A stretch of 64,000 nt of DNA, from contig NZ_JAUFQR010000003.1 in assembly GCF_030409875.1 (NCBI RefSeq), forward strand, positions 434,001 through 498,000. The letters are read 5' to 3'. The translations under genes and the position numbers were made by a program. Position 1 is the stretch's first letter. The number at the start of each line of letters is the position of its first letter. The DNA comes from Chryseobacterium tructae (lineage in GTDB: Bacteria; Bacteroidota; Bacteroidia; Flavobacteriales; Weeksellaceae). Shown one piece after another: positions 51,938 to 62,364 of the stretch. The notes under the pieces are model-generated. The model saw only the letters and a program-made list of their open reading frames with translations. It did not search any database and was not told the DNA's origin.

Positions 51938-52219
51938 TCACACCTTTACTTTTGCTTCCAAATATTGTTGTCCTCCTCCATTGGTAACCGTTAGAAATCC
52001 GTCATAGTGGGCAACCCTTACTCCAAGGTCGTTATTTATTTCTTTAAAATATCCTCTCTTTTCCAGGCTATTGGATTGCCATAAAAATTGCGCCCCTTGC
52101 CCCTTTTGGTTTTGAAAAATCAATGAGTTCAACTTATTTGCAACTCCTGATGATTTAAGATCTATAACTATGCTTTCATTGGCTACGAAATCTTTAGCTA
52201 ATACCATGAAATTATTCAT
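51938..52219 (-). CDS. 93-aa orphan protein
   Basis: A 93-residue protein without signal peptide, Lys/Asn-rich with a beta-strand pattern (ESIVIDLKSSGVANKLNSLI, FLWQSNSLEKRGYF, GVRVAHYDGFLTVTNGG). No family is recognised. It is supported as a gene by its upstream region, which shares a 40-nt promoter module with the beta-helix gene at 60.3-62.3 kb. The shared promoter suggests that the two are expressed together. No partner gene is adjacent. Confidence 0.6.
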   Translation of the reverse strand: MNNFMVLAKDFVANESIVIDLKSSGVANKLNSLIFQNQKGQGAQFLWQSNSLEKRGYFKEINNDLGVRVAHYDGFLTVTNGGGQQYLEAKVKV

Positions 52220-52259: not shown

Positions 52260-52299
52260 CAAAGATATTGGTCTGTAGCGACAGAACTCGACGTATTAT
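52260..52299 (-). promoter_or_regulatory. Shared promoter module, copy 1 (93-aa orphan gene)
   Basis: On the minus strand the -7 box TATCTTTG (52267-52260) is preceded by an 8-nt spacer and a 24-nt block (52299-52276) that begins ATAATACGTCG and ends CGCTA. The same block, 20 of 24 bases identical and at exactly the same 8-nt distance from a TAnnTTTG box, occurs at 62341-62364. The block covers the region where a normal -33 box would lie, so it may be an activator or alternative-sigma site. It is 41 nt upstream of the start codon. Confidence 0.6.
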
Positions 52300-60287: not shown

Positions 60288-62293
60288 TTATCTGATATCC
60301 TGCACTTTTATTGTGGAATTGGATAGAATTTTATCCGGACCGAAGTTACTATTATTATGAGAATGTAGAGTTCTGAATGTACAGTAATTCATTTGTGGAG
60401 ATTCTGCAATAATTCCTACCGGTAAAATTGTTAGATCTGTATAATTAGCCAAGATGTTATTTTCACAAATAATTTCACTTGCCTCACCCTGGATCACAAT
60501 ATGGCCATACTCTTTATTATTTGCCAGACCTACATTATTAGTCTTATTACCGCTAATGATTGCTCGTTTGTATTTCCTATTTTAATCCCGTCAGTGCCGG
60601 TTCTCAAAATCGCATTATCTGCTACAGTAAGTGAAGTATATTCCAAGATATCAATAGCACTTTGTTGTACTGACTTTAGGTTATTGCCTTTAATGGTAAT
60701 ATTTTCTTTTTTAAAATTGGTATGATCGTCTGTAATACATGTTTTAACTGTTTCAATATAATTCCCCTCAATGGTTACGTTATCAGCTCCTTTTCTAATC
60801 TTAATTCCGTCTCCATTTCCTACCATTTCAAGGTCACTAATTTTTACATTATGTACTTTATACAAATCAACCAGAGGAGAGTCAAATGCATTTTCAATTC
60901 TACCATTTCTTACTTTAACCCCATTTGCTCCTTCAATAAAGATTTGCGATGCTTTATTTCCTGAAGATGCCAGATTTTGTACATTGATATTAAAGATCGT
61001 ATGAGAATACTCATCTCCTTCTGTTTTACAAGCAAAGCCATCAAGACCATTATTTCTTGTTGCCAAATTCAAAACATTAACATCGGATACTCCAGCAGTT
61101 GCATCCGGAGTTGTTATCAGTAATCCATAACCATTGTTCTGATCGCAAATACAATTCACAATGTTAACGTTCCTAACTTTTTGATTTTTATTAGGCTCTA
61201 TATCTATTCCTGCCTCCGGGATAGTTCCGCTAGTTTTAATAAACTGACTATTTACCACATTAATACCGTCACCATCTATGATTGAAAGACCTTGTCTACG
61301 GTTATCACGACAAATAACATTTGTAATGTTACCATTATAGGAATCTATGATATAAATACCATCTCCCCAGCATTCTGACACTTCTACATTTTCAATAATG
61401 AAATTATTAGCTTGAAGTACATTAATACCAAACCCCCATTCTCCGAGATCAAGGTTGTTTACGCTTTCATATTTAATAGAACCATCAGTCAATTCAATCA
61501 GGATATTTTCCTTATAATCTATATTACAATAAGATGGTTTTTTAACTGGAGTTATCTCTTCACATGGTACATTCGGATACACCCATGGTTTCACTCCGCC
61601 TGAGATTCCAGCTTTTTTCACTCTCAAGGGGGTATTATTTACATAAACATAATCATCCACCTGATAGGATTCATTAGGTTTCCAAATTTTGTAATAACTC
61701 CCATTTTTAGCCTTAAAACTATATTTATTTCCTTTAATCTTTCCTCCACTCAATTTAGTGTTTAACGTGCCCGTAAAGGAAATTAATTCATAACCATTAT
61801 TACTTCCGGGTAGTGCTTCAACTCTGCCATTCAAATAATAATTGGTATCACTCTGAAGCTGAATCTTTTTTTGTAAATCTGCAGTTGGAACTGTTTTCTT
61901 ATCTACATCTACATTAATTTTATAAAGTCCTGAAATAATAACATTTTTAACGTTCATAGCATATAGTCTAACAAGAGCTATATTGACTTTTTCAATTTCT
62001 TCGGGGAGACCATCCCCTTTAATACCACAATAAGCAAGATCCACAGTATCTCCAAATGCTGCTTCCAATTTGTATTGTCCATTGTTGGTGAGTTTAATAC
62101 TACTGAAATGATCCTCTGAAGCAGCTGTTTTTGATAAATAATAGATAACAGGTTTATCATAAGAAATTCCCGGATAATATCCCGTTAGCTGCACATATTG
62201 TGGTTTTAGATCTTCAAAAGATGTTACTAGTTCTGAAATCTCAGCTACACTTAGATTTTGTAGCTCGCTCATTGAATTTTTAATAATTGCCAT
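60288..62293 (-). pseudogene. Right-handed parallel beta-helix repeat protein (one-base frameshift)
   Basis: The main frame (62293-60530) has no signal peptide. An N-terminal ~250-residue region of unknown fold (MAIIKNSMSELQNLSVAEIS) is followed by long pectate-lyase-like beta-helix repeats (DGIYIIDSYNGNITNVICRD, NNGLDGFACKTEGDEY). It stops at ...QSLAVIRLIM. Adding one A to the AA (plus-strand TT at 60560-60561) gives NTNEQIISGNKTNNVGLANN and continues to 60288, adding the last ~95 residues and about 668 in all. The pattern resembles tailspike or polysaccharide-binding proteins. It shares a promoter module with the 93-aa orphan gene. Confidence 0.78.
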
Positions 62294-62324: not shown

Positions 62325-62364
62325 CAAAAGTACAAAGCCATAGCGCCAAAAGACGACGTATTAT
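62325..62364 (-). promoter_or_regulatory. Shared promoter module, copy 2 (beta-helix gene)
   Basis: On the minus strand TACTTTTG (62332-62325) is a TAnnTTTG box; 8 nt upstream lies a 24-nt block (62364-62341) starting ATAATACGTCG and ending CGCTA. It matches the copy at 52260-52299 in both sequence and spacing. It is 31 nt upstream of the start codon of the beta-helix gene. Confidence 0.6.

Follow-up and report, generated by a model that had tools for sequence, protein, structure and literature searches.

Promoters with a putative DriD-like operator dyad precede dispersed toxin-like, lysis and beta-helix genes in Chryseobacterium

Results

A shared promoter element in the window

The window analysed here is a 64,000-nucleotide stretch of the Chryseobacterium tructae genome (C3:434001-498000 of the 5.63-Mb, three-contig assembly, termed G000). 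Two of its minus-strand genes are considered. The first (51938..52219) encodes a 93-residue protein (P0001) that has no family match and 40 homologues, those with an organism name all being from Chryseobacterium. The second (60530..62293) encodes a 587-residue right-handed beta-helix protein (P0002; Beta_helix, E 1.6e-16), which also matches a phage family of unknown function (phrog_14824, E 6.9e-21) and in which no signal peptide was seen by eye.

The original prediction was that the regions upstream of these genes share a promoter block, and this was confirmed. Positions 52276-52299 and 62341-62364 of the window are identical at 20 of 24 bases and the full 40-nt stretches (52260-52299 and 62325-62364) at 27 of 40. 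On the minus strand both copies read as the 24-nt block, exactly 8 nt, and then a TAnnTTTG box, which is TATCTTTG (52260..52267) for the 93-residue gene, with the start codon 40 nt after it, and TACTTTTG (62325..62332) for the beta-helix gene. At up to three mismatches this pattern matches twice in the window, versus no match in 100 dinucleotide shuffles. When the two 150-nt upstream regions were compared with each other, their best 24-nt match was equalled in one of 200 mononucleotide shuffles. Taken by itself, the window pair is suggestive of a real shared element, so that the decision rests on the evidence from the genome and the genus.

That evidence revises the conserved unit from a 24-nt block and an 8-nt gap to a 17-nt dyad 10 nt from TAnnTTTG. 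The minus-strand dyads in the window are ACGTC-N7-GTCGC at the promoter of the 93-residue gene (52278..52294; two mismatches to ACGAC-N7-GTCGT-N10-TAnnTTTG) and a weaker copy, ACGTC-N7-GGCGC, at that of the beta-helix gene (62343..62359; three mismatches), each with its -7 box 10 nt downstream. TAnnTTTG is the housekeeping type of -7 box in Bacteroidetes, where an ordinary housekeeping promoter also has a -33 TTG located 17-23 nt upstream of it. Direct reading of the sequence shows that this TTG is absent from both window promoters, which fits an activator that substitutes for the -33 contact. The proposal that the two promoters are not of the housekeeping kind is therefore correct for the -33 element but not for the -7 box.

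The element across the genome and the genus

In the whole of G000 the pattern as first described has five matches at up to three mismatches, and the widened pattern ACGTCAAGTTYTGNCGC-N10-TAnnTTTG has 14 sites under the same limit, with no match to the reversed control in either search. Among 59 genomes searched, all 36 from Chryseobacterium contain 3-23 sites (14 in G000, with sites in 35 of 35 others), and the 23 genomes from other genera yielded a single site in one (G041); the reversed control gave one match in all 59. The idea that the two window genes form a system of their own proved too small. A two-gene module is ruled out by the 14 genomic sites, and both genes would belong to a putative regulon of about that size. 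The genome-wide scan suggested with the original prediction also established that the motif is not randomly placed, as 13 of the 14 sites in G000 lie between genes and have an ORF start no more than 300 nt away, compared with 7.8% of random positions drawn from those loci. For G032, G002, G008 and G022, four of the ten genomes with fully listed sites, the corresponding number is 57 of 61 (random positions, 5.2%), with one of the 61 inside an ORF call; a fifth genome, G017, with 18 tabulated sites, was left out of the placement count.

The geometry of the element was analysed in 80 named loci, the best 80 of 148 around the candidate regulator described below, whose titles comprise 77 from Chryseobacterium, two Weeksellaceae MAGs and one Flavobacterium MAG. 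When the block was searched without the box, 231 matches were obtained. TAnnTTTG lies exactly 10 nt further on in 210 of these, and the remaining 21 have no box, none having one at any other spacing within 45 nt. The dyad RCGWC-N7-GWCGY alone gave 426 matches when both strands were counted. Of these, 198 have the box at +10 (∼0.3 expected per offset), 18 have it at +4 and five at other offsets, and 207 lack a box. Judged from their positions, 17 of the 18 matches at +4 represent the dyad of the regulator gene itself on the opposite strand, and many of the 207 are likely boxless because the dyad matches on both strands (strand pairs were not matched up). The core dyad, the common form of which is ACGWCA-AGTTT-TGWCGY, therefore stands 10 nt upstream of a housekeeping-type box. 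The intervening 10 nt vary in sequence, so that what is conserved is the operator, the distance and the box.

The block is thus a real element found before many genes across Chryseobacterium, and the sequence data strongly support a promoter of fixed geometry that would be read by a common regulator. Such a regulator had been proposed together with a different sigma factor as its alternative; the constant spacing upholds the former, and an alternative sigma factor is thought unlikely because the -7 box is the ordinary TAnnTTTG.

The dyad also resembles a known operator, that of DriD from Caulobacter crescentus, given as ATACGAC-N7-GTCGTAT in the available part of its description (PMC12340889). 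A total of 169 unique sites share the DriD half-sites and N7 core, half-sites and box having been preset by the search. The strict DriD consensus has eight matches in the 2.85 Mb searched (overlapping loci counted) at two distinct places; one precedes the G000 endolysin gene and the other a WYL gene, and each has TAnnTTTG at +10. Relative to the symmetric consensus, the window copies with their two and three mismatches are degenerate. The operator-to-box distance is likewise fixed, and overlap with the -35 region is judged from the position of the box.

A candidate regulator

The best candidate for the regulator, on sequence grounds, is a WYL/WCX protein whose gene stands at the end of the endolysin cluster of G000, outside the window (C3:396743-397663). 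It has WYL and WCX domains (Pfam, 4.7e-13 and 1.8e-8) and a predicted wHTH-WYL-WCX fold, and orthologues with 88-99% identity are present in all 35 other Chryseobacterium genomes. Every one of the 80 named orthologue loci (the best 80 of 148) has a dyad and box, at up to three mismatches, within 160 nt upstream. Among more divergent homologues, 10 of 20 loci have both no further than 160 nt before the matched stretch (a single mismatch in nine, four mismatches in the tenth), namely five of five at 64-73% identity and five of 15 at 42% or less; one of the divergent loci, that of G147, has a 7-nt core of quite another sequence (ACGCCAT).

The presence of sites largely follows that of the WYL gene. 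G041, the sole genome with a site among the 23 from other genera, encodes, at a distance of 3.4 kb from it, the best homologue outside the genus in that set (36%). In 39 chosen genomes, sites occur in 15 of the 19 with a WYL match at E<=2e-44 and in one of the 20 with a weaker match or none (Fisher p 2e-6, uncorrected for ancestry and with a cut-off picked after viewing the table); this search gave two reversed-control matches. Four genomes with homologues of 34-42% identity have no sites by the genus pattern, and G182, with a weak homologue, has one. Co-occurrence of gene and sites is confounded by ancestry. G267 is the only one of 29 same-genus genomes without a WYL match (E<=1e-25), and no sites, endolysin, patatin or 231-residue protein were found in it. 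Since regulator and targets are lacking together, loss of the sites may merely follow loss of the targets, and G267 fits, without proving, dependence on the WYL protein. As a probe for a target kept after its site was lost, the 231-residue protein was found in three of 19 genomes and was absent from G267, G205 and all 14 genomes of other genera. A WYL homologue with an in-frame TGA occurs at G177:C19:20668-21579, in a genome that has three sites.

In the predicted structure of the regulator (mean pLDDT 82, with 23 residues below 50) the best fold matches by Z score are DriD chains, at 16.9 (C-terminal part) and 16.2, with full-length chains at 15.0 and 14.4. Foldseek E-values rank PafB first and DriD next, and BrxR and CapW are among the matches, ranked below DriD. 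Residues R153, R166, W167, Y168 and R186 are invariant in 41 homologues. Based on the family and these invariant groove residues, the signal is probably single-stranded DNA (ssDNA).

Genes downstream of the sites

Besides the WYL gene, the first genes after the sites in G000 encode an M15 endolysin (with a tandem second site at C3:383162 that lies outside the three-mismatch limit), a patatin (L061:13998-15035), an LRR protein (behind which come two further proteins that start MKTKxELK..YFENGD), a 737-residue protein with a C39 peptidase domain, an 871-residue protein with two small immunity-like ORFs behind it, a 231-residue protein, a DUF285 protein in which a signal peptide was seen by eye, a 707-residue protein, a 386-residue 'TLFRFVSLR' protein, and two beta-helix proteins and the 93-residue protein; one site precedes a region of short ORFs. 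Many of these families recur in G032, G002, G008 and G022, with extra beta-helix paralogues. By eye, the dyad promoter in these four genomes also precedes gene pairs for a T9SS-tailed and a large, secreted Rhs-like protein, and T9SS-tailed proteins followed by signal-peptide-bearing Rhs-like proteins of at least ∼900 residues were seen in L182, L185, L193, L202, L205, L209, L212, L214 and L217.

A PHROG comparison of the endolysin gave matches to five endolysin families at E<=1e-5 (best 6.6e-30). NCBIfam gave no match for nine of 10 proteins, and for the endolysin only matches below the cut-off. A homologue in G320 (L286:529-1995) lies among small genes that by eye resemble a phage lysis module, and one of its neighbours matches a phage family. 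No dyad and box were found upstream of it, one three-mismatch match lies inside the gene, and G320 has neither a regulator match (E<=1e-25) nor a site. This phage-type relative is a possible source of the domesticated copy. The umuC gene near the endolysin cluster of G000 is split into two overlapping ORFs (C3:381774-383044; L061:11774-13044).

The patatin matches PADLOC 'Effector, Phospholipase' models, which we take to represent the CapV-type effectors of CBASS, a system that can be controlled by CapW. No cyclase gene was recognised near the patatin on inspection of the ORF list. The cassette between patatin and regulator, surveyed in the 72 of 80 named loci that were parsed (several of them cut), varies in content, and contains either a giant protein of ∼1200-1600 residues with toxin-like and immunity-like genes or a triplet led by DUF2589. 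Such a three-gene set replaces the giant and toxin-like genes at L099:6905-8807 and similar loci; one paper in the open-licence literature searched mentions DUF2589. Toxin-type domain matches are to Tox-MPTase4, C39, Ntox28 and Imm35. Most toxin-type genes lie downstream in the cassette, so that their control by the sites presupposes operons. Two giant proteins scanned with Pfam (L105 and L098) gave no match, and a UniRef title describing the giant homologue P0043 as a Tc toxin ('Tc toxin complex TcA C-terminal TcB-b...') was accordingly not relied on.

A contractile sheath that could deliver the payload was found in G000 by neither of two Pfam models. VipB (PF05943) is matched in none of the 59 genomes, although this model may miss the Bacteroidetes type, and the result is correspondingly weak evidence in setting aside a T6SS effector regulon. 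PF04984 has no match in G000 and matches at E<=0.001 in eight of 22 same-genus genomes, three of them over the cut-off, so that by this model a sheath is not a constant partner. The lack of a sheath gene by the two models in G000 favours release of the signal-less proteins by lysis, although some targets (DUF285 and Rhs-like proteins) bear signal peptides by eye, which counts against lysis as a needed route.

Discussion

We think it likely that a DriD-like, putatively ssDNA-responsive WYL activator runs a toxin-and-lysis regulon through the dyad promoter. A dimer of the WYL protein would bind ACGAC-N7-GTCGT, the centre of which falls ∼30 nt before the start site and over the place of the missing -33 element, and would recruit the housekeeping RNA polymerase, which would read TAnnTTTG 10 nt downstream. 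The ssDNA arising from damage or phage attack would probably fill the WYL groove and switch the activator on, as in DriD and PafBC. We infer that the activator would then turn on its own gene, the phage-type endolysin, the patatin phospholipase, the polymorphic-toxin-like genes and the giant proteins, as well as the beta-helix proteins and the 93-residue protein, such that a damaged cell would be armed and would perhaps lyse, releasing its payload. The two genes in the window most likely represent two of the roughly fourteen promoters of this antagonism and lysis set.

The same protein could instead sit on the dyad as a ligand-released repressor, as do the WYL proteins BrxR and CapW. The dyad overlaps the -33 region, the WYL gene bears a site of its own, and both repressors are among the fold matches, yet a blocker has no need of the rigid spacing by which every box-bearing block match has its box at 10 nt, the usual -33 element is absent from both window promoters, and DriD outranks both repressors in fold. 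Repression is therefore improbable, and we regard as somewhat more improbable a different regulator that reads the dyad and has the WYL gene as one more target. That the gene lies in the cluster and bears a site like any target is in keeping with this, and co-occurrence cannot tell a regulator from a target. However, the WYL homologue of G201 (38%) keeps an upstream dyad although searches of that genome gave no match to the endolysin or the patatin. In addition, the dyad is the same as the operator described for a WYL protein, DriD, in the consulted part of PMC12340889.

There is very little to recommend the dyad as the SOS box of a Bacteroidetes LexA-like repressor. Of 22 testable named loci, 19 have a umuC start no more than 2.2 kb from the endolysin and 14 have one within 320 nt, but the Bacteroidetes LexA-type motifs in the available excerpt of PMC8565304 (GGA-N5-TCC and CTAA-N5-TTAG, and TTAC-N5-GTAA in E. 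anophelis) differ in half-sites and spacing, the base counts of the dyad do not fit the first two, and a repressor box requires no rigid distance. It is hardly conceivable that the element matches by chance or is a dispersed repeat that regulates nothing. A single shuffle in 200 equalled the window pair, as noted above, but 14 sites face none in the reversed control, all 35 other genomes searched from the genus carry sites, the sites examined for placement lie at gene starts, and the 10-nt spacer between dyad and box is variable.

The activator reading can be extended, tentatively and with rather more doubt than confidence, to a genus-wide, colicin-like altruism programme in Chryseobacterium and its relatives. 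The DriD-like ssDNA sensor, responding to damage or phage attack, might fire ∼10-20 dispersed promoters at once, with the domesticated phage endolysin and the CapV-type phospholipase bursting the cell and the polymorphic toxins, giant proteins and tailspike-like proteins acting on neighbours. If the activator reading holds, the whole genus would gain a defined and predictable antagonism regulon, the DriD operator would extend from Caulobacter to Bacteroidota, and a WYL damage sensor would be tied to weapons and lysis rather than to repair. Any gene with a dyad promoter would become a candidate weapon, immunity or release component, giving testable functions to many 'hypothetical' proteins. No prior description of such a regulon was found in the titles and abstract openings of the open-licence literature searched.

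Several known systems can be compared with the one proposed here. The defence-linked repressors CapW and BrxR share the fold, and the patatin matches CBASS-type phospholipase effector models, but no cyclase was recognised by eye near it and the promoter geometry speaks for activation. The older consensus of mycobacterial PafBC is reportedly RecA-NDp. PafBC is an ssDNA-activated WYL activator that replaces the -35 contact and reads a -26 motif, as described in the portion of PMC11804915 available, but it is a heterodimer in which only PafB reads DNA (PMC12340889, in part), whereas the system here has, as far as sequence tells, a two-sided dyad and one regulator gene. SiwR of Mycobacterium smegmatis is a homodimeric WYL activator with a 19-bp imperfect palindrome between -35 and -10 (from the accessible text of PMC10693628), and so provides a second precedent for a palindrome in such a promoter position, although according to the same text it acts on an adjacent operon rather than on a dispersed regulon. 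The closest likeness is to DriD, a homodimeric WYL activator with the same wHTH-WYL-WCX fold and the best Z score against the regulator model, albeit at 18-19% identity in the structural alignment. The half-sites, the 7-nt core, the place over the -35 region and the single distance to the -10 box are the same in the sections of PMC12340889 consulted, which name didA, bapE, recJ, dnaG and CCNA_03891/CCNA_01149 as DriD targets. The putative targets here differ from these in being toxin-like genes, lysis enzymes and beta-helix proteins, and the promoters have a Bacteroidetes-type -7 box.
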